This document shows, piece after piece, positions 5,751 to 24,029 of a stretch of DNA of 24,136 bases; the stretch's first letter is position 1, and each line of letters begins with the position of its first letter. The stretch covers positions 1 to 24,136 of the IMG/VR virus record IMGVR_UViG_3300025896_000184. One strand, written 5' to 3'. Under the pieces are notes generated by a model. It was given only the letters and a program-made list of their open reading frames with translations, was not told the DNA's origin and searched no databases. Made by a program: the position numbers and the translations under genes. This stretch comes from a virus.

Positions 5751-7845
5751 CCGCTACTGGTCGCGGGAAGACGCGCCCGGCCGCCTGCAACTGCGCAACG
5801 CGCTCGATCAGCTGCAGATCGGCCAGCGGCTGCGCCTGTCCGACCTGCCGGCCAACGCCCATGCGGAACAGGCTGCGCCCGACGAGGCCGAGCGCGCCGA
5901 CGCGCTGCCCGGGCTTGTGGAATACACGAGCCACGCCCTGCGCGCCGGTGAGATCGACAGCGATACCCGCGAGACCGAACTGTCGTTCAGCTCTGAAGCG
6001 CCCTGCGAGCGCTGGTGGGGCATCGAAGTCCTGGGTCACGCCCAGGGCGAAGTCGATATGTCGTGGATCGCGTCCGGCCGGGCCCCACTGCTCGCCGACC
6101 ACGATCCGCAAACCCAGATTGGCGTTGTCCGCAGCGCCCTGCTCAGCCGCGACCGGAAAGGTCGTGCCGTCGTGAGGTTCGGTAAGAGCCCGCGCGCCGA
6201 GCAGGAAATGCAGGACGCCAAAGACGGCGTGCGCGTCAACGTGAGCGTGGGCTACGAAATCCGTGAACTCGAGCTGGTGAAGCAAGAGGGCGACGTGAAG
6301 ACGTACCGCGTGACCGACTGGCGCCCGCTCGAAACGAGCCTGGTGTCGATCCCGGCCGACATGACTGTCGGCATCGGGCGAGCCGCCGAGGACAACACCA
6401 CCCCCCCGCAAAAGCAAACCCCGAAGGAGAAATCCATGAGCGAAACGAACACCACCGCCGAACTCGACCGCGTCCGCGCCGAGGCCCGCACCGCTGCCGT
6501 CAAGGACGAGCAGGACCGCGTCAAGGGCATCATGGCCCTGGCCACCCGCCACGCCCTGCGAGAGCTGGGCGAAAAGGCCGTCGCCGACGGCACCGCGCTC
6601 GAGCTGTTCCGTGGCCAGGCGCTGGACGAACTGCACAAGAAGGGCAGCGACAAGCCGCTGTACCAGCCGGCGGCCGAAATCGGCCTGTCCGACAAGGAAG
6701 CGCGCGAATTCAGCGTCGCGCGCTACATGCGCAGCCTGATCGACAAGGACACGAGCGTTGCCCCGTTCGAGCACGAGTGCGCCAAGTCCGTGCGCGAGGC
6801 CCTGGAAAAGGCCGGCTACCGCGGCCACGGCAAGGGCAACTTCCTGCCCTACGAACTCATGCGCCAGCAGCTGCCCGGCACCCGCATGGTCGATGGCCGC
6901 CTGATGATCGGTGACCGTGTCGTCGCGCAGCGGGATCTGGCCACCAGCTCCACCGCGGCGGGCGGCGCGATGGTCGCCACCGATCTGCTCGCGGCCGACT
7001 TCATCACCTTGCTGCGCAACGCCTCGCTGGTGCGCCGCATGGGGGCTCGCGTGCTCGGCGGCCTGGTCGGCAACGTCGCCATCCCGCGCCAGACGGCGGG
7101 CGTGTCGCCGGGCTGGGTGGCGCAGGCCGGAGCGGCTTCCGAAGCCGACTCCACCTTCGCGCAGGTGACCCTGTCGCCGAAGACGGCCCATGCCATCCAG
7201 GACGTGACGCGCGACCTGCTGCTGCAAGGCACGCCGGCGGTCGAGGGCCTGATCCGCGCCGACCTGATCGAAGGCATGGCCACCCAACTCGACCTGGTCG
7301 CGCTGCATGGCACCGGTGCTTCCAACCAACCCACCGGACTGGCCGCCACGGCCGGCATTGGCGCGGTGGTGGGCGGCACCAACGGCGCCGCGCCGACCTG
7401 GGACAACATCGTCGACCTCGAATCGGCGGTGGCCAACAACAATGCCGCGGTCGGCTCCACCGGCTACCTGAGCAACACCAAGGTGCGCGGCAAGCTCAAG
7501 CGCACCCAGAAGTTCGCCAGCACGAACGGCCAGGAAATCTGGATGCCGGCCATGGCCGGCGACGATTCCAGCCTGTTCGGCAGCCTCAACGGCTACCGCG
7601 CCGGCGTGAGCAACAACGTCAGCTCCGCGCTCACCAAGGGCACGAGCTCGGGCGTGTGCTCGGCGATCTTCTACGGCAACTGGTCGGACCTGCTGATCGG
7701 CGAGTGGGGCACGGCCGAGCTGCTGCCCGACGAAGTCACCCAGGCCGCGAACCGGATCGTGCGCATGCACATCTACCAGACCATCGACATCGCCGTGCGC
7801 CGCGCGCAGAGCTTCGCCGCGATGCTGGACGCGCTGACCGTCTGA
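5731..7845 (+). CDS. Prohead protease-major capsid protein fusion (HK97-like)
   Basis: A single 704-residue frame. Residues about 60-230 are a caudoviral prohead serine protease, with catalytic His124 in LLADHD and Ser172 in VSVGYEI, spaced as usual. Residues 236-395 are a charged helical scaffold or delta region. Residues about 395-704 are an HK97-fold capsid, with RDLATSSTAAGG near the mature N-terminus and GTGASNQPTGLAATAG in the fold. ATG 5731 has an AGGAG site within the portal gene. A second, strong ribosome-binding site stands before an in-frame ATG at 6436, so a separate 469-residue capsid precursor may also be made. The fused form would be processed by its own protease during maturation. 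Confidence 0.93.
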   Translation: MTPLLSNRYWSREDAPGRLQLRNALDQLQIGQRLRLSDLPANAHAEQAAPDEAERADALPGLVEYTSHALRAGEIDSDTRETELSFSSEAPCERWWGIEVLGHAQGEVDMSWIASGRAPLLADHDPQTQIGVVRSALLSRDRKGRAVVRFGKSPRAEQEMQDAKDGVRVNVSVGYEIRELELVKQEGDVKTYRVTDWRPLETSLVSIPADMTVGIGRAAEDNTTPPQKQTPKEKSMSETNTTAELDRVRAEARTAAVKDEQDRVKGIMALATRHALRELGEKAVADGTALELFRGQALDELHKKGSDKPLYQPAAEIGLSDKEAREFSVARYMRSLIDKDTSVAPFEHECAKSVREALEKAGYRGHGKGNFLPYELMRQQLPGTRMVDGRLMIGDRVVAQRDLATSSTAAGGAMVATDLLAADFITLLRNASLVRRMGARVLGGLVGNVAIPRQTAGVSPGWVAQAGAASEADSTFAQVTLSPKTAHAIQDVTRDLLLQGTPAVEGLIRADLIEGMATQLDLVALHGTGASNQPTGLAATAGIGAVVGGTNGAAPTWDNIVDLESAVANNNAAVGSTGYLSNTKVRGKLKRTQKFASTNGQEIWMPAMAGDDSSLFGSLNGYRAGVSNNVSSALTKGTSSGVCSAIFYGNWSDLLIGEWGTAELLPDEVTQAANRIVRMHIYQTIDIAVRRAQSFAAMLDALTV
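6424..6438 (+). promoter_or_regulatory. Internal ribosome-binding site and in-frame start for capsid precursor
   Basis: AAGGAGA at 6424-6430 lies 5 bases before an in-frame ATG at 6436. The product would begin MSETNTTAEL, just after the protease domain and a Pro/Lys linker. Site strength and spacing match the other starts in this operon. This suggests that capsid subunits are made in excess of protease, as in phages with nested protease/scaffold/capsid products. Confidence 0.6.
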
Positions 7846-10237: not shown

Positions 10238-12284
10238 CAAGGAAGTCAAGTTCCGACTCTCCGCGCAGGACGACACCTCGCGCGTGCTGCGCAATCTGGG
10301 CACGGAGTTCAAGACCCTCGGGAAGTCGACCAGCGCCGTGCGTGGCCTGCTCGGCGACCTGGGCGTGGGCCTGGGCGGAGCGCTGGCCGGCGTCAGCTTC
10401 GCGGCGATCATCAAGGGCGCGATCGACAGCCTGGACGCCCTCAACGACCTGCGCGACGCCACCGGCTCCAGTGTGGAGAACATCTCCGCACTCGAGGACA
10501 TCGCCGCGCGCACCGGCACCAGCTTCGACACCGTCGGCGCGGCCCTGGGCAAGTTCAACAAGGTGCTGACGGAGGCCAAGGACCCGGGCAGCGAAGCGGC
10601 GCAGATCCTCGAGGCCCTCGGCCTCAATGCCGAGGAGCTGCGCAACCTCGACCCGGCCGAGGCGCTGCAGCAGGCGGCGAAAGCGCTGGCCGGCTTTGCG
10701 AACGACGGCGAGCGGGCGCGCGCCGTGCAGCAGCTGTTCGGCAAATCGGTGCGCGAGATCGGCCCCCTCCTGGCCGATCTGGCCGAAGCAGGGCAGCTCA
10801 ATGCCACCGTGACGGCCCAGCAGGCGCAGGAGGCTGAAAAGTTCAGCCATGCGCTCAGCGCGATCGAGAAGAACGCGCTCGACGTGAGCCGCGCGCTGGC
10901 CTCATCGATGCTGCCCACGCTCAACGGCATCGTCGAGGCCTTCCGGGGCGGAGCGAGCGAAGGCGACGCGCTGAAGGGCGTGGTCGACGGTATCGGCGCG
11001 GTGTTCCGCACGGTGGTGCAGACGCTGACGATCGTCGGCGCGAACGTGTCCTTCGTGTTCGCTGCCACAGGCCGTGAGATCGGCGCGATCGTCGCGCAGA
11101 TCGCTGCCCTGGCTCGCATGGATATCAGCGGCTTTCGTGCAATCAGCGATGCCGTGCGCGCCGATGGGGTGCGCGCCCGGGCCGAGCTGGATGCCCTGGA
11201 GCGCCGCATCATGTCGGTGGGCGGGCCCGATCTCGGGCAGAGTGACCCCCGCGAGCTGGCCCGCCGCGGCCGCGGCCCCCGCACGCTGGCCACGCTGAAG
11301 ATTCCCGACGAGGTCAAACCCACGCGCCCGGGGGGCTCACGGGCGCCCAGGGGTGAGCGTGCCGAGATCGACGAGGCCGCCCAGGCCCTGGCCCGCTACG
11401 TGGCGCAGCTCGACCGCGAACTGCAGGCCGTGGACGACCTGACCGAAGAGCAGAAGGCGCTGAACTTTCTGCGTTCGCTGGGCAGTACCGGAGAGATTGA
11501 GCAGGTCCGCGAGCTGGTGCTCGGCATGGCCCAGCAGAAGCAGTCGGTGCTCGACCAGGCCGATGCCGAGAAGGAACTGAACCGCTACCTCCAGGAGCAG
11601 GCCGGGCTGCGCAAGCAGATCGACGAAACGCTCGACAACCTCAGCGGCCGCACCGAAGAAGCGCGCAAGCGCGCCCTGACCGAGCGCCTGCAGAGCCGGC
11701 TGAGCGCCGGCGAGAACTTCAGCCCCGAGGAGCTCGACCGCATCGTCAAGGGCATCGGTGGCGTCAACGAGAAGCTCGAACAAGGCAAGGGCATCGCCGA
11801 GGAACTGGGGCTGAGCTTCAGCAGTGCCTTCGAAGACGCCATCGTGCATGGCGGCAAGCTGAGCGACGTGCTCGACGGCCTGGGGGCCGACATCACCCGC
11901 ATCGTCACCCGCAAGCTCGTGACCGAGCCACTGGGCAACGGCATCGCCGACCTGTTCAAGAGCGCCGGCGGCTCCGGTGGCGGTGGCGGTGACCTGTGGG
12001 GCAAGCTCTTCGGCCAGGTCAGCAGCTTCTTCGGCGGCTTCTTCGCCGAGGGTGGTTACCTGCCCGCAGGCAAGTGGGGCATTGCCGGCGAGCGGGGCCC
12101 GGAACCGATCTTCGGCGGCCGCTCGGGCATGACGATTCACCCGGCCTCGGCCGAGCCGGTGCAGCGCCCGGTCTCGGTGGTCAACCACTTCGCGATCAGC
12201 GGTGCGGCCGACGTGCGCACCCAGACCCAGCTCGCCGCCGCCGCCGGCGCCGGTGTGCAACGCGCCCTGGCCCGCAACGGCTGA
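10227..12284 (+). CDS. Tail length tape measure protein
   Basis: A 685-residue tape measure, whose length sets tail length. It starts at ATG 10227 inside the end of the T frame. Features are an N-terminal KFRLSAQDDTSRVLRNLG start typical of the family, hydrophobic segments at about 43-66 and 265-300, and long helical regions (about 385-560). The C-terminal block FAEGGYLPAGKWGIAGERGP (about 607-626) is strongly conserved in these proteins. A Gly-rich linker precedes this block. Using the usual proportion of about 1.5 angstrom per helical residue, the tail would be roughly 100 nm, which is an inference. It is short compared with many tape measures. Confidence 0.92.
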   Translation: MAADKEVKFRLSAQDDTSRVLRNLGTEFKTLGKSTSAVRGLLGDLGVGLGGALAGVSFAAIIKGAIDSLDALNDLRDATGSSVENISALEDIAARTGTSFDTVGAALGKFNKVLTEAKDPGSEAAQILEALGLNAEELRNLDPAEALQQAAKALAGFANDGERARAVQQLFGKSVREIGPLLADLAEAGQLNATVTAQQAQEAEKFSHALSAIEKNALDVSRALASSMLPTLNGIVEAFRGGASEGDALKGVVDGIGAVFRTVVQTLTIVGANVSFVFAATGREIGAIVAQIAALARMDISGFRAISDAVRADGVRARAELDALERRIMSVGGPDLGQSDPRELARRGRGPRTLATLKIPDEVKPTRPGGSRAPRGERAEIDEAAQALARYVAQLDRELQAVDDLTEEQKALNFLRSLGSTGEIEQVRELVLGMAQQKQSVLDQADAEKELNRYLQEQAGLRKQIDETLDNLSGRTEEARKRALTERLQSRLSAGENFSPEELDRIVKGIGGVNEKLEQGKGIAEELGLSFSSAFEDAIVHGGKLSDVLDGLGADITRIVTRKLVTEPLGNGIADLFKSAGGSGGGGGDLWGKLFGQVSSFFGGFFAEGGYLPAGKWGIAGERGPEPIFGGRSGMTIHPASAEPVQRPVSVVNHFAISGAADVRTQTQLAAAAGAGVQRALARNG

Positions 12285-12306: not shown

Positions 12307-12912
12307 ATGGCATTCTTCGAACACCGACTGGACCCGCGCATCACCGTGGGCGCCAAGGGCGGCCCGCAGTGGAGCACGCACGTCACGCGCACCGCCTCGG
12401 GCCGGCGCTTCACGAACCGCCTGTGGGCCTACCCGCTGCACAAGTACGACGTGTCGCACGGCCTGCACAGCGCGGCCGATTTCGAGACGCTGCGCGCCTT
12501 CTTCATGGTGGTTGCCGGCCAGGCGGACGGATTCCGGTTCAAGGATTGGGCCGACTACCGCTGCACGCAGACCACGAGCAGCCTCACGTTCATCACCGGC
12601 AGCACGTGGCAGCTCAACCGCATGTACGCGGCGGGCGCGCGCTCCTATGTGCGGCCGATCAGCAAGCCGGTGGCCGCCACGGTGTACCGCACGCGCGCCT
12701 CGGTGGTGACCGTGGCCAGCGCCACCATCGACACCACCACCGGCATCGCCACGATCGCCGGCCACAGCGCCGGCGACACCTACACCTGGGAGGGCGAGTT
12801 CGACGTGCCGGTGGCCTTCACGAGCGACTTCGCCGACATCGAAATGATCGGCGGCGGCGCCGACCTGCTGCAGAACTGGGCAGGCATCCAGGTCGAGGAG
12901 ATCCGGCTGTGA
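12307..12912 (+). CDS. Tail-tip protein, DUF2460 family (GTA gp12-like)
   Basis: A 201-residue protein with the family's hallmark pattern: N-terminal GGPQWSTHVTRTASGRRFTN, then a DGFRFKDWADYRC motif at about 76-88. The start is ATG 12307; an in-frame extension upstream lies in the tape-measure gene. DUF2460 proteins are distal tail hub components in gene transfer agents and related siphoviruses. The gene is the first of a DUF2460, DUF2163, NlpC/P60, tip-protein cluster, which supports the call. The stop overlaps the next start as GTGA. Confidence 0.88.
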   Translation: MAFFEHRLDPRITVGAKGGPQWSTHVTRTASGRRFTNRLWAYPLHKYDVSHGLHSAADFETLRAFFMVVAGQADGFRFKDWADYRCTQTTSSLTFITGSTWQLNRMYAAGARSYVRPISKPVAATVYRTRASVVTVASATIDTTTGIATIAGHSAGDTYTWEGEFDVPVAFTSDFADIEMIGGGADLLQNWAGIQVEEIRL

Positions 12913-13760
12913 AAACCCTGCCATCGGCCCTGGCGGCGCACTACGCCGGCACCGGGCACACGCTGGCCACGGCCCTGCGCATCACGCGCACCGACAACGT
13001 GGTCTTCGCGATCACCGACCACGACGCCGACTCGACGATCGACGCCGTGCTCTACAAGTCCGCGCCCGGCCTGGACGTGACCAACATCGAGCACAGCGCC
13101 GGCACGGGTGTGGACAACCTCGAGCTCAGCGTCTTCGGTGACGACAGCGTCTTCACGCCGATCGACGTGCTCGGCGGCGTGTGGCGCAACGCCGCCTTCA
13201 CGATCTTCCGCTACAACTGGGCGAGCCCCGCCGACGGCATCGACACGCTGCTCACCGGCACGGTGGGTGAGGTCACGCTGCGCGGGAACACCATCGTTGC
13301 CGAGCTGCGGGGGCTGCAGCAGTACCTGCAGCAACCGGTGGGCAACGTCAGCACCAAGGCCTGCCGCACCCGCCTGGGCAGCGCGCTGTGCGGCGTGAAC
13401 CTGGCCACGTACACCTTCGCGGCCACGATCACCACGGCCACGAGCCGGCAGGTGTTCACCGCCGCCGCGCTGGCCCAGGCGGCGGGCTACTTCGCCGAAG
13501 GGCTGCTCACCTGGACGAGCGGGGCGAATGCCGGCCTGTCGCAGAAGGTCAAGACCTTCGCCGCGGGCGGTGTGGTCACTCTGGCGCTGCCGATGCTGGG
13601 CACGGTCAGCGTGGGCGACGGCTTCGACATCACGGCCGGGTGTACCAAACGCCTGGCCGAAGACTGCATCGCCAAGTTCGCCAACGTGCTCAACTACCAA
13701 GGCGAGCCGCACCGCCCCACGCTCGACGACATGGTCAAGCCGGTCGAGCCCAGCGTATGA
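12909..13760 (+). CDS. Tail-tip hub protein, DUF2163 family (GTA gp13-like)
   Basis: A 283-residue protein starting at GTG 12909 (MKTLPSALAAHY). It has the DUF2163 N-terminal domain, with ALRITRTDNVVFAITDHDAD at about 22-41. The C-terminal beta domain contains Cys residues in KACRTRLGSALCGVN and ITAGCTKRLAEDCIAKF. Related proteins bind an iron-sulphur or metal site in the tail tip of some phages (lambda gpL-like), and these Cys residues are candidate ligands here. It overlaps the previous gene by GTGA and the next by ATGA. Confidence 0.87.
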   Translation: MKTLPSALAAHYAGTGHTLATALRITRTDNVVFAITDHDADSTIDAVLYKSAPGLDVTNIEHSAGTGVDNLELSVFGDDSVFTPIDVLGGVWRNAAFTIFRYNWASPADGIDTLLTGTVGEVTLRGNTIVAELRGLQQYLQQPVGNVSTKACRTRLGSALCGVNLATYTFAATITTATSRQVFTAAALAQAAGYFAEGLLTWTSGANAGLSQKVKTFAAGGVVTLALPMLGTVSVGDGFDITAGCTKRLAEDCIAKFANVLNYQGEPHRPTLDDMVKPVEPSV

Positions 13761-14194: not shown

Positions 14195-17100
14195 TGTCGA
14201 CGCAATATATCGTTGCCGCGGTCGGCGCAGTTGTTGGTGGATACGTCGGCAGCTTTTTCGGCGCAACGGCGCAGGGCGCCCAGTGGGGCTGGGCCCTTGG
14301 TGGTGCCGTCGGGGCCTCGATGGCGCCGAACCAGAAGGTGCAAGGGCCCAAGCTCGCCGACCTGAAGGCCACCGGCGTGGAGTACGGCCAGCCCATCCCC
14401 TGGCTGCAGGGGCACCCGCGCGTGGCACCCCAGGTGTGGTGGTCGAGTGACCGGCGCGAGATCGCGACCACGGTGGAGCAGGGCGGCAAGGGCGGCGGTG
14501 GCACCGACGTGACGACCTACACCTACGAGGTCGACATGCTGCTCGGCTTGTCGGACAACGAGATCGTCGGGGTCTCCCGCGTCTGGCAGAACGGCAAGCT
14601 CGTCTACAACACCCTGTCCAGCGCCGACAGTGGCACGGTGGCGGCCAGCGTCACCACCGATCTGTGGAAGCGCATCACGGTGTACACCGGCAGCGCCACG
14701 CAGATGCCCGACCCGGCCTATGAAGCCGCGGTCGGAACGGCCAATGCGCCGGCCTACCGTGGCCGCGGCAGCGTGTTCATCGAGGGCCTGCAACTCGGCG
14801 GCTCGGGGCAGATCCCGAACCTGACATTCGAGGTGCTGACCAAGGGCGATGTCGGCTTTGCCTATGACCAGATCGACCCGCTGCTGAGCATCGCGCTGAC
14901 GAACAACGACATCCCGTGCACCATCGGGCACCGGGTGGGCAAGTACAAGATCATGGTGGCCAACACCAGCACCGGGCGCCCGCTGAAATACTGGGATGTG
15001 GAAGAGGCGCAGGACGGCACCATCGAGCTCGTCTCGCTGGGGCAGATCGGTACATTTCAGACGGCCGGCACCATCGTGGCGGGCAACAGCGATCAAAGCT
15101 GTTTCGTGCTCAACAGCGGTGGCGGGACGAACGTGTTGCGCGTCATCGAAGACGACGCCACATGGGCCGACTACAACATCGGCAGCACATTCAGCACCTG
15201 GGGGCGCCGCAACGGCGTGGTGGTGGGGCGCCGATTGAGCGACGGCAAGATCGTTCGCGCCGACACCCTGGCCGCCAGCGCGGCGGGCGGGTACGTGGCG
15301 AATCACATCGCCGTAGGAACTGACAAGTGCTTTGCACTGCGCGGCAGCGTCGGGCCGCTCGAGGTCTACGTGTTCGATTTGTCGACGATGGCGCTGCTGC
15401 AGACCATCGCGACGCCCGCGGGGGGCAGCGCGAACTTGTTCTGCGACGAGCACGACAACGTCTACGTCACCAGCGGCACCGCGTTTTGGCGGCTCGACGT
15501 CACGGGATGGACGGCGATGCCTTCGCCCGGCTCCAGTGGGTGGGGCACGGCCGGTGGCTATTCGAGCCTCAACCTGGCCGGAGGCTACCTCTATACGACT
15601 TCGGCCGGCGGACCCAGCGCAACTTTTACCAACAAACGGTTGATGATGCTGCCCACCTACACGCTGCGGGACGAGAGCTTGGCGGATGTGGTCAGCCGCC
15701 TGTGCCTACGTGCAGGACTCACGGCTGGGCAGTTTGACGTGACGGCGCTCGCCAGCATCGCGAAGCCGGTGCGGGCCTTCGCCGTGAGCCAGGTATGCGG
15801 CACGCGCGCCTGTCTCGACATCCTGGCTTCGGCCTACTTCTTCGAGTGCGTGGGAGGCGACAAATTGTACTTCCGCCCGCGGGGTTCGGCGCCGGTGGCC
15901 ACGATCCCATGGGCCGATCTGGGCGCGAGCATGAGCCCGGAGGGGGACGCCGAGACCCTGGCGCTGAAGCTCAACAACGAGCTCGAGATCCCGGCCGAGG
16001 TAGCGCTGAGCTACATCAACGTCGACAAGGACTACAACACCGACACGCAGGTCAGCGACCGGCTGCTCACGGCCCAGGGCAGCACCAGCAACGCGCAATT
16101 GCCCCTGGCCTTCACGGCATCCGAGGCCAAGGGCATCGCCGATGCGATGGTGGCTGATCAGGGGGCGTCGATCGTCAGCACCCGGCTCGCCTTGCCGCAC
16201 ACCTACGCGCGCCTCGAGCCCACCGACGTCGTGCTCGCCACCGGCGATGACGGCAGTCAGTACCGCCTGCGCTTGATCAAGCGCGCCGACGCGTCCGGGC
16301 TGCTGAGCTTCGACGCCGTGCTCGACGATGCCAGCGTGCTCACCAGCGCGGGTGTGACGAGCACCGACTACATCCCGTCGACGACGGTCAATGCGCCGGC
16401 GCAGACGCTGCTGGAGGTTCTGGACATTCCCATCCTGCGCGACGCCGACAACTCCCCTGGGCACTACGGGGTTTGCAAAGGGAGTTCCCCCCAGTGGCCC
16501 GGGGCCGTGATCTTCGGCAGCGCAAACGACGTGGACTTCGTACAGGCAGCCACGGTGACCGAAGCGGCGATTTTCGGTGTGGCAACCACCACTTTGGGCG
16601 CTTGGACTGGGGGCAACGTTTTCGACGAAACCAACACGCTCACCGTCGACGTTGGGAACGGCCAGCTGGCCAGCAGCACGCGCGATGCGCTGTTGTCCGA
16701 CGAGACGATCAACTCCCTCCTCGTCGGGGCCGAGATCATCCGCTTCGTGGATGCGGCGCTGCTGGGCCCCGGCGTCTATCAACTGGCGCGCCTTTTGCGC
16801 GGCCAGCGGGGCACGGAATGGGCCGCCGGAGGGCACGCCGCGGCCGAACGCGTGGTGCTGTTGCGCAACGCCGGCGCGCGCCGCCTGCCGTTGCAGGCCG
16901 GGCAGATCAATGTGCCCCTGTACTGGCGTGGGGTGTCGATCGGCCGCAAGCTGAGCACCGCAACCAGCAAGCAAGTCACGAACACCGGCATCGGACTCAA
17001 ACCCCACGCCCCGGTGGACGCCCGCGTGGCCCGCGATGCGGGCAACGACTGCACGATCCGCTGGGCGAGGCGCACCCGCCTGTCTCATCGGTTTCTCTCG

Positions 17101-18419: not shown

Positions 18420-18734
18420 GAAAGGGAGCGCGGACAGCGCCTGCTTTTGCGTGGACGGGGCGACCTCTCGGTCAACGGCCAGGAAGTTCAGATAGGACTG
18501 AACTTCGGCAGCGCCCATGCCGGCCGGGTGACGCCGGTTGTGCCACTGTGCAAAGGCCTTCGCCCAGTGCACGTAGGTGCGCTCGGTGCTCAGGCTGTAT
18601 TGGCGCGTGCGGCATTCGATGGCGATGCGTTCCCACAAGTTCGGCTTGGCTGAGATCGGTCGGCGTGTGTCGTGTATCGCGGCAGGTGCTGTCGTGATAA
18701 CCGGAGCTTGCGCTTTGGAATCAATGACTTGCAT
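18420..18734 (-). pseudogene. intI: Integron integrase, N-terminal fragment
   Basis: The frame reads leftward from ATG 18734. Residues 30-103 match the N-terminal SAM-like DNA-binding domain of integron integrases: RQYSLSTERTYVHWAKAFAQ, RHPAGMGAAEVQSYLNFLAV and STQKQALSAL. Homology ends at about residue 103-105. The frame then runs about 16 unrelated residues into the complement of the phage membrane gene and stops at 18372. A normal IntI is about 320-340 residues, so the catalytic domain with the Arg-His-Arg-Tyr set and the IntI-specific insertion is missing. The fragment cannot be an active recombinase. Its position next to attI and divergent from the attC sites is that of a classical integron. 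Confidence 0.88.
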
Positions 18735-19467: not shown

Positions 19468-19492
19468 ACAGTGCCTCGTTTCTCAACCAGCG

Positions 19493-19550
19493 CCCTAACC
19501 CCTCGTTCGAGCGGGACGCCTATCGGCGCCCCTCAACTCGAACGTTAGCC
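19493..19550 (+). repeat. attC1 (end of cassette 1)
   Basis: R'' CCCTAAC at 19493-19499, R' GTTAGCC at 19544-19550, 58 bp. The inner stem is GGG, unpaired A, CGCC against GGCG, CCC, with a TATC loop. Cassette 1 begins GTTAGGGCGCT, the exact complement of the 11 nt ending at this R''. R' differs from the consensus GTTRRRY at one base. Confidence 0.9.
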
Positions 19551-19750: not shown

Positions 19751-20032
19751 TCAGAAGGTGGTGGGTTGCGCGATGCCGCGAATCACGGCCATGAACCCGC
19801 GCTGAATGTCAGTCGCGCCGATGCTCACCCAACGCTGGTCCAGCGCCGGGCCACGGTCGGGCGGGTTCTCCTGGCGCAAGATCGCATTGCGCGTCACGTC
19901 CGGGTGCGCCCGCAGCTTGGCGATGTACTCGCCGCAAGCTTCGGCCAGCGCCTTGCCTTCGTTCATCAGCGCGACTTCTGCATCGCTCAGTTGCCGGTAG
20001 CCCGTCACCTTCGGTTGAATCATCGTTTCCAT
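19751..20032 (-). CDS. acb2: Acb2/Tad1-like cyclic-nucleotide sponge (anti-CBASS/Thoeris)
   Basis: A 93-residue protein close to the length of known Acb2 proteins. Family features are GYRQLSDAEVALMNEGKALA near the N-terminus (11-30) and the C-terminal block RWVSIGATDIQRGFMAVIRG followed by IAQPTTF (67-93). Acb2/Tad1 hairpin proteins form hexamers that bind the second messengers of CBASS or Thoeris, so the effector is not activated. From memory, Tyr11 and Lys26 are ligand-contact residues in Acb2; Tyr12 and Lys27 here keep the same spacing. AGGAA precedes the ATG. The middle (about 44-62) is a longer acidic and Arg-rich loop than in some homologues. Finding it inside an attC-bounded unit is unusual. 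Confidence 0.82.
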   Translation of the reverse strand: METMIQPKVTGYRQLSDAEVALMNEGKALAEACGEYIAKLRAHPDVTRNAILRQENPPDRGPALDQRWVSIGATDIQRGFMAVIRGIAQPTTF

Positions 20033-20072: not shown

Positions 20073-20130
20073 GGCTAACCCCTCGCTGGAAGGGACCGCC
20101 TTCGGCGGCCCCTCAGCTCAAACGTTAGGC
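20073..20130 (+). repeat. attC2 (end of cassette 2)
   Basis: R'' GGCTAAC at 20073-20079, R' GTTAGGC at 20124-20130, 58 bp. The stem is GGG, unpaired A (20095), CCGCC, loop TTC, GGCGG, CCC. Cassette 2 begins GTTAGCCAGCAC, which complements the 12 nt ending at this R'' exactly. The non-consensus R'' therefore matches its own cassette start rather than the R' beside it. Confidence 0.93.
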
Positions 20131-20405: not shown

Positions 20406-20468
20406 GCCCAACCCGCCAATCAAGCGGAGCCGCGCTGGCGCGCGTCCCGCTTATCGGCAACGTTGTGC
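20406..20468 (+). repeat. attC3 (end of cassette 3)
   Basis: R'' GCCCAAC at 20406-20412, R' GTTGTGC at 20462-20468, 63 bp. The arms AAGCGG and CCGCTT pair, with an unpaired A after the left arm and a GC-rich inner stem. The cassette 3 start (GTTAGGC) and this R'' differ by one transition that still pairs as a wobble. R' is one base off consensus. Confidence 0.85.
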
Positions 20469-21168: not shown

Positions 21169-21225
21169 GCACAACACCGGCTGCAACGGACTGCCTACGG
21201 CAGCCGTTGATCCTGGCCGTTGTGC
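21169..21225 (+). repeat. attC4 (end of cassette 4)
   Basis: R'' GCACAAC at 21169-21175, R' GTTGTGC at 21219-21225, 57 bp. The stem is CAACGG, unpaired A, CTGCC, loop TAC, GGCAG, CCGTTG, a clean 11-bp pairing. Cassette 4 begins GTTGTGCG, complementary to its R'' over 8 nt and 12 of 13 overall. The C-terminus of the Lar-like gene of cassette 5 reads into this site. Confidence 0.92.
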
Positions 21226-21807: not shown

Positions 21808-21866
21808 GCACAACTGGCGGGTCAAGCGGACCGCCTTCGGCGGCCCGCTTACCCTTGTCGTTGGGC
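21808..21866 (+). repeat. attC5 (end of cassette 5)
   Basis: R'' GCACAAC at 21808-21814, R' GTTGGGC at 21860-21866, 59 bp. The arms AAGCGG and CCGCTT enclose CCGCC, TTC, GGCGG, with an A on the left arm opposite a C. Cassette 5 begins GTTGTGCCGCT, which complements the 11 nt ending at this R'' exactly. Confidence 0.92.
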
Positions 21867-21870
21867 GTCT

Positions 21871-22353
21871 TCAGTTGTCGAACCAGAAGACCACGCGGCC
21901 GGCGTCGGCGTCTTGCAGGCGCTTGAGCACTGCGAAGTAACCCGGGCCGAGGAACTCGCGCAGCGTTTGCTTCTTGCCTTCGCCCGGCTCGCATGTGCCG
22001 CCACCAGTCCAGAAGTTCGGCCCGAGCTGCTTGGTGCATCGTCGGTCCTCGATGGTCTGTTCGTAGTCCACCGCCGCCAGCTCGGCCACACTCACCCAGC
22101 TTGCGCTGTGCGCGTCGCTGCTCCAGGCGTCGTAGCTCTCGGCGGCGTTTCGGCTTGCATCTCGTGGGAAGCCCCGGTCGGCCGCAATCGGTGCCAGCCC
22201 CGAGTAGTTGCGCACGCCGGCCAGCCAGCCGAAGAAGCCGTAGTCGCGGGCGTCAAACGCCATCACCTTGTCGTCAGCCCACGCACGGGGCCTAACTGTC
22301 TGTTCAACCGGACCCGCCACGGCACCCTGGCTTGCCTGCTGTGTCTCGCTCAT
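21871..22353 (-). CDS. Conserved phage-type protein, YGFFGWLAGVRN family (cassette 6)
   Basis: A 160-residue protein. The core (about 30-100) has a pattern I associate with a widespread phage protein of unknown function: DYGFFGWLAGVRNYSGLAPI, RGFPRD, then a DAHSASWVSVAELAAVDYEQ block. I start it at ATG 22353, preceded by AAAGGAG; an in-frame GTG lies 2 codons upstream. The start codon and ribosome-binding site sit in the loop of attC6, and residues 1-22 are encoded by the left half of that site. The N-terminal segment is thus probably an attC-derived extension. It has 4 Cys or His pairs but no clear metal motif. Confidence 0.72.
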   Translation of the reverse strand: MSETQQASQGAVAGPVEQTVRPRAWADDKVMAFDARDYGFFGWLAGVRNYSGLAPIAADRGFPRDASRNAAESYDAWSSDAHSASWVSVAELAAVDYEQTIEDRRCTKQLGPNFWTGGGTCEPGEGKKQTLREFLGPGYFAVLKRLQDADAGRVVFWFDN

Positions 22354-22404
22354 CGTCACTCCTTTGGCGCTCGCGTGGCGGGCGCGGTTAACCTGGCGTT
22401 AGGC
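22290..22404 (+). repeat. attC6 (end of cassette 6), long loop
   Basis: R'' GCCTAAC at 22290-22296, R' GTTAGGC at 22398-22404, 115 bp. The arms CCCGCCAC (22313-22320) and GTGGCGGG pair perfectly over 8 bp, extended outward by AACCG and CGGTT. The loop of about 50 nt contains the end of the cassette 7 gene and the start of the cassette 6 gene. The cassette 6 start (GTTGGGC) differs from this R'' by one wobble-compatible base. Confidence 0.82.
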
Positions 22405-22850
22405 CCGTACAAATCCACGGGGCTGAAATCTGCGCACAGCGGCTTCGCTCGTTGGAACAGCAGTTGAATCTCGCTCTCATGCAGCACGCGGGCAACGTCC
22501 ATGCTCACGGCCTGGAAGCCGAGGCGTTGCAGCGTGGCGTACTCGCTGGCCGTGAACCAGCGCCTCAGCTGTTCCAGCGTGCGGCAGGCGCAGCCGAAGT
22601 GCTTGCCGAACGGCCAGCCGGTGCGCGGTATCGCGTCATACCCGAACTGCTGCATCCACGGCACAAGGTTGTCATGGTCGGGACGTTCTTCCACCCACCA
22701 ATGGCTGAAGCCTGGGCGGAACGGACCGCGCCCTTCGGCATCCTGCACGCGGTACACACGCGCCGGTACGGGCCTAACAGTTCGGTCGAGCCGACTGCCC
22801 ACGGCAGTAGGCATCGTGCCTTCGTTCATCGTCGTCTCGGCCGTGGTCAT
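22356..22850 (-). CDS. Conserved phage-type protein, CACRTLEQLRRWF family (cassette 7)
   Basis: A 164-residue protein. Residues about 31-135 resemble a widespread phage protein of unknown function: YRVQDAEGRGPFRPGFSHWW, then GKHFGCACRTLEQLRRWFTA and SEYATLQRLGFQAVSMD. The first 27 or so residues are encoded inside attC7, with GAGGTGA and ATG 22850 in its right arm; ATG 22814 is an alternative start. The last 16 residues are encoded by attC6. Its final codons AAG GAG form the ribosome-binding site of the next gene, and its TGA is 2 bases before that gene's ATG. Conserved family positions lie only in the middle. Confidence 0.74.
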   Translation of the reverse strand: MTTAETTMNEGTMPTAVGSRLDRTVRPVPARVYRVQDAEGRGPFRPGFSHWWVEERPDHDNLVPWMQQFGYDAIPRTGWPFGKHFGCACRTLEQLRRWFTASEYATLQRLGFQAVSMDVARVLHESEIQLLFQRAKPLCADFSPVDLYGPNARLTAPATRAPKE

Positions 22851-22871
22851 CGGCTCACCTCTGCGTTAGGC
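22772..22871 (+). repeat. attC7 (end of cassette 7), long loop
   Basis: R'' GCCTAAC at 22772-22778, R' GTTAGGC at 22865-22871, 100 bp. GAGCCGA on the left pairs with TCGGCTC on the right, continued by CCACGGC with GCCGTGG. Cassette 7 begins GTTAGGCCCGTAC, the exact complement of the 13 nt ending at this R'', the longest such match in the array. Confidence 0.9.
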
Positions 22872-22961
22872 ATCACCAACAGCCGCGCAGCCAATCAGCG
22901 CCAGTGCCGCGCCCACGATCAGCAGGCGCTGCGCCCACTTCCACACGTCATCCCCGTACAT
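22866..22961 (-). CDS. Small membrane peptide (cassette 8, distal)
   Basis: A 31-residue frame (MYGDDVWKWAQRLLIVGAAL onward, ending IGCAAVGDA) with one hydrophobic span at about 13-27. It overlaps the end of the preceding Cys-rich gene in another frame. Its stop TAA is formed by the core of attC7 (GTTAGGC read on the - strand). The ribosome-binding site is weak (GGGG). It could be a genuine single-span peptide, or a fortuitous frame given its length. Confidence 0.4.
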   Translation of the reverse strand: MYGDDVWKWAQRLLIVGAALALIGCAAVGDA

Positions 22962-23226
22962 CACGCGCCCCACAGATGTCGCAGCGCTCGCCGGGTTGCA
23001 GGTGGCATTCGCCGCAAGGTGTGGCGCGTCGCCCAATCTCAACCAGCGGCTTGTGCACTGGCATTGCGGCAGCCAGCGCCTTGTAGCGTTCCACCTCACG
23101 TTCGCGCCAGCCGGGGTCAATCAAGTCCCACAGCAGCGGCGGCTTCTGCTTCGGCTGCGCACAAACGTGTTCCGCGCAGTCGTCGGCGTTGTTGCATTTT
23201 CCTGCCGGGTGTTCGCATTGGGTCAT
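22948..23226 (-). CDS. Double zinc-ribbon-like protein (cassette 8)
   Basis: A 92-residue Cys-rich protein with a strong AAGGAG site. The N-terminal cluster (Cys4, Cys11, Cys17, Cys22) and the C-terminal cluster (CGEC at 71-74, CDIC at 82-85) flank a helical middle (WREREVERYKALAAAM). The C-terminal Cys4 group is a typical zinc ribbon and follows the pattern GRRATPCGECHLQPGERCDI. Similar small zinc-ribbon proteins are common in phage early regions. Function unknown. Its ATG overlaps the preceding small gene's stop (ATGA), so it is probably co-translated. Confidence 0.74.
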   Translation of the reverse strand: MTQCEHPAGKCNNADDCAEHVCAQPKQKPPLLWDLIDPGWREREVERYKALAAAMPVHKPLVEIGRRATPCGECHLQPGERCDICGARDVRG

Positions 23227-23390
23227 TGCGGCTCCTTCGCCTTGTCAATCTGTTTTGCCAGCCACTCAGCGCCAAGGCGCTTCAGCTTTTCCCATCTGGC
23301 ATCGTTCAGCCGCACGCTGCGCGGCTTGGTTGCTTCTTCTGGTGGCAGGGCCTTTCGGCCCTGGCCCCTTCCTGCGCCGCCCCGGGTCAC
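23223..23390 (-). CDS. Small basic helical protein (cassette 8)
   Basis: A 55-residue frame from GTG 23390 to TGA at 23223-23225. It begins VTRGGAGRGQGRKALPPEEA and contains RSVRLNDARWEKLKRLGAEW, a pattern close to short ribbon-helix-helix or phage DNA-binding proteins (strand RSVRL, then a long helix). It overlaps the upstream stop as GTGA and the downstream start as ATGA. Coupling at both ends and the amphipathic helix make it a convincing gene despite its length. A DNA-binding role is inferred only from this pattern. Confidence 0.7.
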   Translation of the reverse strand: MTRGGAGRGQGRKALPPEEATKPRSVRLNDARWEKLKRLGAEWLAKQIDKAKEPQ

Positions 23391-23572
23391 TGCACAGCCT
23401 TCAGCGTGCTCACCGGCAGGGCCATTTCGCCGCGCCCTGTCTTGCCAGTGGCCGGGTTGTAGGGCTTCACTTGCGCATACTGCTCGGTTTCGCCGGGCAG
23501 GGTACGAAAGGCCAGGATCACGAACTGACCGAACTTGCCTGCGACGATCTGGTTAACTTGGAAGGTGTTCAT
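23387..23572 (-). CDS. Small beta-rich protein (cassette 8, first gene)
   Basis: A 61-residue protein. I start it at ATG 23572 (MNTFQVNQIVAGKFGQFVIL), with GGAG 8 bases upstream; the open frame upstream to 23620 has no good start and overlaps the promoter candidate. The pattern VAGKFGQFVILAFRTLPG with YAQVKPYNPATGKTGRGEMA looks like a small SH3- or OB-like barrel. Function unknown. It is first in a set of three or four overlapping genes in cassette 8, and has the only substantial leader in the array. Confidence 0.7.
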   Translation of the reverse strand: MNTFQVNQIVAGKFGQFVILAFRTLPGETEQYAQVKPYNPATGKTGRGEMALPVSTLKAVQ

Positions 23573-23693
23573 TTGCTTGCTCCGGGTTGGTGTGTCGATG
23601 GGTGTACTGTAGTACGTCAATCAAACATCCGCAAGGGGTCTAGCAAAAGAATTGTGTAACACCGCAAACAATCGCGCGCTCCGGCACCACGGC
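23573..23693 (-). promoter_or_regulatory. Leader of cassette 8 with candidate promoter and operator-like dyad
   Basis: This is the longest noncoding stretch inside the array (121 bp). On the - strand, TTGCGG at 23634-23629 and TACAGT at 23611-23606 are spaced 17 bp and could be -35 and -10 elements of moderate quality. The dyad GTACT-GT-AGTAC (23604-23615) covers the -10 and would suit a repressor. Transcription would run leftward into cassette 8 and possibly all cassettes to its left. This is a sequence-only prediction. Confidence 0.35.
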
Positions 23694-23751
23694 ACCTAAC
23701 AGGTCGCTCAAACGGAGCGCCTACGGCGCCCGCTTAGCTCCAACGTTAGGC
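23694..23751 (+). repeat. attC8 (end of cassette 8)
   Basis: R'' ACCTAAC at 23694-23700, R' GTTAGGC at 23745-23751, 58 bp. The stem is CGG, unpaired A, GCGCC, loop TAC, GGCGC, CCG. Its R'' matches the cassette 8 start (GTTAGGC) at six of seven positions. Confidence 0.9.
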
Positions 23752-23972: not shown

Positions 23973-24029
23973 GCCTAACACTTCGCTCAAGCCGACGCCT
24001 GACGGCGCGGCTTACCTCGGGCGTTAGGC
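23973..24029 (+). repeat. attC9 (end of cassette 9)
   Basis: R'' GCCTAAC at 23973-23979, R' GTTAGGC at 24023-24029, 57 bp. The arms AAGCCG, unpaired A, CGCC pair with GGCG, CGGCTT. This is nearly the arm sequence of the class 1 aadA-type attC in the same orientation, which fixes the array polarity. Cassette 9 begins GTTAGGCCCTAC, complementary to its R'' over 12 nt. Confidence 0.95.

Follow-up and report, generated by a model that had tools for sequence, protein, structure and literature searches.

Probable translation starts inside attC loops in a phage array of apparently inverted cassettes

How does a cassette gene come to start inside the recombination site in front of it, two bases behind the stop codon of its neighbour? 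The locus that raises this question belongs to an attC array in a complete IMG/VR record of the virus class with linear ends (24,136 bases; this whole stretch of DNA is hereafter called the window). Gene 6 (positions 21871 to 22353, minus strand; 160 aa) is a relative of phrog_10141 whose first ~21 residues, MSETQQASQGAVAGPVEQTVR, come from the site attC6, and gene 7 (22356 to 22850, minus strand; 164 aa), a relative of phrog_1106, takes its 26 N-terminal residues from attC7 and its last ~16 from attC6. The R' core of attC6 (22398 to 22404, minus strand) reads GTTAGGC on the plus strand and GCCTAA/C in coding sense, the slash marking the crossover point directly behind a stop codon; this TAA lies in frame 0 and is crossed by gene 7 in frame 1. 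The letters of the junction are exactly those given in the initial annotation: gene 7 passes through R' and ends AAG (22364 to 22362), GAG (22361 to 22359), TGA (22358 to 22356) within the attC6 loop, and two bases later, after CG, the ATG of gene 6 follows in the same loop (22353 to 22351). The last Lys and Glu codons of gene 7 also double, as had been proposed, as the Shine-Dalgarno (SD) sequence of gene 6, with AAGGAG (22359 to 22364, minus strand) standing 5 nt before the ATG. TGA CG ATG is the close stop/start arrangement of coupled gene pairs, and an alternative in-frame start, GTG (22359 to 22357), lies two codons before the ATG and overlaps the TGA of gene 7. Both ORFs look real: gene 6 matches phrog_10141 at 1.4e-22, gene 7 matches phrog_1106 at 8.8e-9 up to residue 145, just ahead of its attC6-coded tail, and codon use is coding-like in both. 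Relatives of gene 7 were found neither in other viral contigs nor in isolate phages.

The window reads as a phage contig with portal, tape-measure and tail genes on the plus strand at bases 1 to ~18,400, an intI fragment and about nine attC sites, eight of them detected by the finder and the ninth by eye. The minus strand holds every called gene of the array, and all sites are read on it as well. Two are long, namely attC6 (22290 to 22404; 115 nt with a long apical loop, the coding strand being the bottom strand) and attC7 (22772 to 22871; 100 nt), which contains the start ATG of gene 7 (22850 to 22848) and whose R' includes a TAA (22866 to 22868) in frame with an upstream ORF (22866 to 23120), an uncertain gene. 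The finder further detected short attC at 20073 to 20130, 20406 to 20468, 21169 to 21225, 21808 to 21866 (attC5), 23694 to 23751 and 23973 to 24029; a probable short attC at 19489 to 19548, with an R box off consensus, was missed by it. The inverted cores R'' RYYYAAC and R' GTTRRRY are present and 7/7 complementary in attC6 and attC7, the R'' of attC6 reading GCCTAAC on the plus strand (22290 to 22296); its L boxes pair and the extrahelical base lies on the L'' arm. In three sites the single-stranded DNA folds better than shuffled sequences (attC6 bottom strand z=-3.2, attC7 z=-5.5, attC5 z=-3.5). With eight detected sites and a full intI absent from the contig, the window is a CALIN (at least two attC without complete intI). 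It is not a complete integron with functional intI and attI, as it has only ~105 N-terminal IntI residues (18420 to 18734, minus strand, the strand of the cassette genes; PF13495, 9.7e-21) without the catalytic domain. This fragment matches phage-borne IntI proteins at 46.9% over ~80 aa, and confirmed relatives of it were not found in viral contigs. The window has no close isolate phage, the best portal match being 36%, and isolate-phage matches to its array mainly represent the methylase.

Since R' and R'' alone are symmetric, the sites were oriented by their L boxes and by the extrahelical base. In 88 of 92 sites L' and L'' pair and this base is found on the L'' arm of the bottom strand. The genes do not follow the canonical layout, with the gene on the attC top strand and the attC at its 3' end. 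Among those within 300 nt of an attC in the discovery set of 19 contigs, assembled from the window and from loci retrieved through loop or arm patterns, 115 of 116 are on the bottom strand and one is on the top strand. A short-attC probe built independently of loops or genes yielded 57 further contigs, of which 52 are reversed, one is canonical and four are unclear; some probe and discovery contigs overlap in sequence, so these counts stand for fewer independent phages. The sole canonical probe contig (L091) has a full IntI nearby, and its attC presumably resembles the aadA type. L091 serves as one control; the other is Shewanella phage M16-3, whose integron is of the canonical type and was scored as such. 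In the window the intI fragment and the array stand in canonical relation to each other. Judged from these contigs, bottom-strand genes, reversed from the canonical arrangement, are the rule, and with every gene on the attC bottom strand the attC of each cassette would lie upstream of its gene.

The explanation that we regard as probable is a phage attC array of inverted cassettes, in which the long attC is both a recombination site and a portable 5' translation-initiation module. Read in coding direction, a cassette would consist of the C behind one crossover, the 5' attC arm, the loop, the 3' attC arm, the gene and a final GCC TAA, its stop codon being followed at once by the recombination point. 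The loop of a long attC would supply SD and ATG, and translation of the 3' arm and R'' would give the gene product a short leader at its N terminus. At attC6, a ribosome reaching the end of gene 7 would melt the hairpin's 5' arm and could then reinitiate on gene 6, which would also initiate independently from the loop. Transcription would come from a phage promoter on the right, and the cassettes would be mobilized by IntI acting in trans.

Candidate starts within attC loops are found far beyond attC6. A scan for the order R'-SD-ATG-R'' matched 15 viral contigs (~10 distinct phages), while its mirror pattern matched none. A loop start was counted where SD and ATG in the loop open at least 50 codons through R'', and a site was called long at 80 nt or more. 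Among the 41 long sites not matching the scan pattern, 24 have such a start, whereas the mirror strand gives 1 and shuffled loops give 0.6; the probe set replicated this with 20 of 48 new long sites (mirror 0, shuffled 1.4). These counts overstate independence because they include many homologues and overlapping contigs; the long sites fall into 10 coarse clusters, six with SD and ATG, and the clustering at 70% may merge unrelated loops. The occurrence of SD and ATG in attC loops is far above chance. About half of the long sites are without them, and none of the 99 short attC (0/42 and 0/57) holds them, the gene start there mostly lying past the attC. In bacterial genomes the loop pattern was found only in a dispersed attC-like repeat of two Methylococcaceae MAGs, and a search of 369 genomes of their class did not find the attC6-family arm. 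The repeat occurs in several copies (L018 to L021) with SD and ATG in its loop, unfused to long genes.

The genes upstream of the sites mostly stop earlier. Of the 54 genes that run into a site in the first set, 36 end with the R' TAA (p=6e-7); the other 18 all cross it in frame 1, and frame 2 does not occur. The corresponding numbers in the second set (n=47) are 30, 17 and 0. Pooled over all arrays, entry in frame 2 amounts to 0/101, and 15 genes of the first set that are in frame 2 stop 4, 7 or 10 nt before the attC instead. In about a dozen sites a gene that runs through in frame 1 has its stop close to the loop ATG, for example at offsets of +2 in the window, +3 in G008, -4 in G007, L038 and L066, and -1 in L069; in L052 and L101 the frame-1 stop lies 24-25 nt earlier. 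Frame-1 proximity was seen in 26 of 31 cases, with 9 expected if the null retains SD and ATG. When a single site stands for each coarse cluster, a frame-1 stop at -14 to +7 nt of the loop ATG occurs in five of six, compared with 1.7 expected (p=0.0005) or, when the null also keeps the second codon, with 3.3 expected (p=0.02). The bare proximity of stop and ATG is thus only mildly above chance. The initial annotation had asked whether attC loops are built to offer a stop/start relay and whether other long loops hold the same one. The start half of this idea is supported, as long phage loops very often hold SD and ATG and about a dozen run-through genes stop near the loop ATG; the stop half does not generalize, the stop usually being the R' TAA, typically 27-46 nt before the ATG. 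Exact TGA-CG-ATG was rejected as a general rule, since upstream frames and gaps vary. In attC6 the close stop/start results from an upstream gene that crosses R' in another frame and thereby ends beside SD and ATG.

These distances bear on the strongest alternative, according to which SD and ATG of the loop are a real start, free ribosomes enter directly at the apical loop, and the nearby stop is a coincidence without coupling. We judge it quite possible, though somewhat short of an even chance. With the upstream stop at R' in most sites and the ATG typically tens of bases away, tight coupling cannot be the general mode, and the proximity of frame-1 stops reaches only p=0.02 with the stricter null. 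SD and ATG of attC6 are moreover predicted to be partly open (unpaired 0.56 and 0.86), so that coupling may add little. Against this alternative, the predicted cost of opening the start in free RNA exceeds that of ordinary starts in these phages (medians 15.5 vs 11.2 kcal/mol). The predicted median falls to 11.6 kcal/mol with a ribosome at the R' stop and strongly, to 6.0 kcal/mol, once the 5' arm is cleared, part of which follows from the clearing itself, since a shorter folded sequence has a lower opening energy. For attC6 the three predicted values are 10.9, 10.8 and 4.9 kcal/mol. According to this folding model, the start of gene 6 would be opened by a ribosome that runs through, which is the case on gene 7, but not by one that halts at R'. 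Translational coupling of gene 7 to gene 6 is therefore plausible in the model.

A second alternative grants the loop no role: the ATG of attC6 would be unused, its surroundings a product of chance, and gene 6 would have a more internal start, such as the Met of VMAFDARDYGFF, the point from which its relatives are homologous. In fact, homology to the relatives in contig G001 and in Xanthomonas phages sets in only at about residue 32-34. The relative in G001 is 87% identical over residues 25-160 and starts outside its attC as MGCDIHSY..., so that the native N terminus of gene 6 relatives appears swapped for the attC6-coded leader in the window. The internal ATG, however, has AAGG only ~2 nt upstream, and loop SD and ATG lie far above the mirror and shuffle controls. 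Nor do indels and leader swaps disturb the reading frame of the leaders. Between the ATG and the end of R'', members of the attC6 family have 64, 55 or 52 nt, lengths that leave the same remainder on division by 3, whereas the segment ahead of the ATG ranges freely from 47 to 51 nt. Furthermore, different phages have one and the same gene behind unrelated attC leaders, fused in an identical frame and homologous from R'' onward (G008/L040, 96%; G008/L073, 85%); the loci are positions 12574 to 12935 of G008, shared with L040, and 15010 to 15733, shared with L073. These pairs suggest an exchange of leader or attC at R'', unlike the usual crossover. The excess of loop SD and ATG, the frame-kept leaders and the in-frame leader swaps make it likely that the loop ATG is the true start of the cassette gene, and we consider an unused ATG unlikely.

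Even less probable is the proposal of the initial annotation that cassettes 6 and 7 are long-term neighbours that have adapted to each other. The TGA beside the SD is indeed confined to the window copy, as the other attC6-family loops found are GGAGCAACGATG, GGAGCGACGATG or similar. Yet the attC6 loop, SD and leader peptide recur in other phages with different genes on both sides, the ATG at the equivalent position of the homologous attC, and unrelated gene pairs also show run-through stops near a loop ATG. As the proximity of stop and start recurs with other neighbours, long co-residence is unneeded. It is unneeded also because gene 7, in a free circle, would meet its own attC7 and stop there at an ATGA overlap. 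The stop/start overlap of attC6 is one local version of attC-borne translation starts. That the attC orientation was misassigned and the genes stand in the usual orientation is a highly improbable reading, for which the symmetry of R' and R'' alone would leave room, but against which stand the extrahelical base of nearly all sites, the canonical outcome of the controls and the canonical relation between intI fragment and array.

Cassettes of this kind recur in different contexts. One is shared by G001 and L093 with 97.9% over 523 nt and an R' at both ends; among 67 shared segments, two run from R' to R', four from R'' to R', and 41 have neither boundary. The window shares its cassette at 23222 to 23748 with the phage contigs L058 and L098 at ~82%, with homology beginning at the R' core.

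Integrons and CALINs of phages are already known, and phage attC have been shown to be substrates of IntI1 (Qi et al. 2023, PMC9892861). Like the present arrays, those described there often lack intI and carry cargo including DNA methyltransferases; they are described as same-direction or as having divergent attC, and neither an antisense placement of genes relative to attC nor start codons in the loops came up in the sections and search terms covered in that paper. A comparable case of coupling is that of ORF-11, ORF-17 and ORF-18 at attI1 in class 1 integrons (PMC8876359). There too a short reading frame spans a recombination site and passes ribosomes on to the gene behind it; however, the site is an attI and the ORF is separate, whereas the present attC itself supplies the start of the gene and probably adds its codons to the protein. 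In addition, attC hairpins hinder translation, and a short ORF within the attC relieves this by termination-reinitiation (PMC8876359). There upstream translation melts the attC stem and permits reinitiation, as it may in the present arrays, but in canonical cassettes the attC is located 3', while the present attC lies 5' of the gene with the start in its loop. In Xanthomonas integrons symE is also opposed to the Pc direction (PMC12444791), as an exception in canonical arrays, in contrast to the present arrays, which are reversed throughout, as a rule. Our search, which included few subscription papers, found no literature on whole inverted-cassette arrays or on attC loops with the gene's own start or SD.

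The larger finding is, to judge from the sequences, a format of inverted phage cassettes that have the attC at the 5' end and bring their own start and stop. This points to a second function of integron recombination sites, as translation signals, and to the use by phages of mirror-image cassettes, a form that suits operons read from the phage side. The finding also gives a testable handle on two open questions, namely the expression of promoterless cassettes away from Pc and the birth of new cassettes. The chances are about even that phages keep a separate pool of inverted cassettes, in which the attC is a swappable hairpin of recombination site, ribosome-binding site, start codon and in-frame leader, with a universal stop at the crossover. 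If true, such a pool would allow the plug-in expression of anti-defence genes from a phage operon, correctly initiated and terminated, and would imply a route of cassette birth that joins the attC upstream of genes.

The cargo of the window array includes a protein of the Acb2/Tad1 hairpin family, a DNA methyltransferase and a Lar-like protein. As Acb2-family (anti-CBASS), Lar-like and DNA methyltransferase genes are among the cargo, the format may help phages to exchange counter-defence genes. Acb2/Tad1-like cassette genes are located in two different phages, at 19751 to 20032 of the window and at 5814 to 6098 of L030 (corresponding to 25814 to 26098 of G007), the former assigned by PF24729 (9e-14) and the G007 copy by similar sequence; they represent possible anti-CBASS cargo.

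With respect to integrases in the other contigs, a TTG-started 414-aa ORF in G007 was considered as IntI and rejected, as it reads as an ordinary phage tyrosine integrase. L055 (6838 to 7345) has an ORF for an IntI N terminus and, behind it, a small remainder of the C terminus, a pattern that would fit a deletion of the catalytic middle part. A 335-aa IntI-like protein with ~45-53% to the IntI of phages M16-3 and P1 is encoded at 11904 to 12911 of L078, a contig with one attC probe match and mixed gene orientation.
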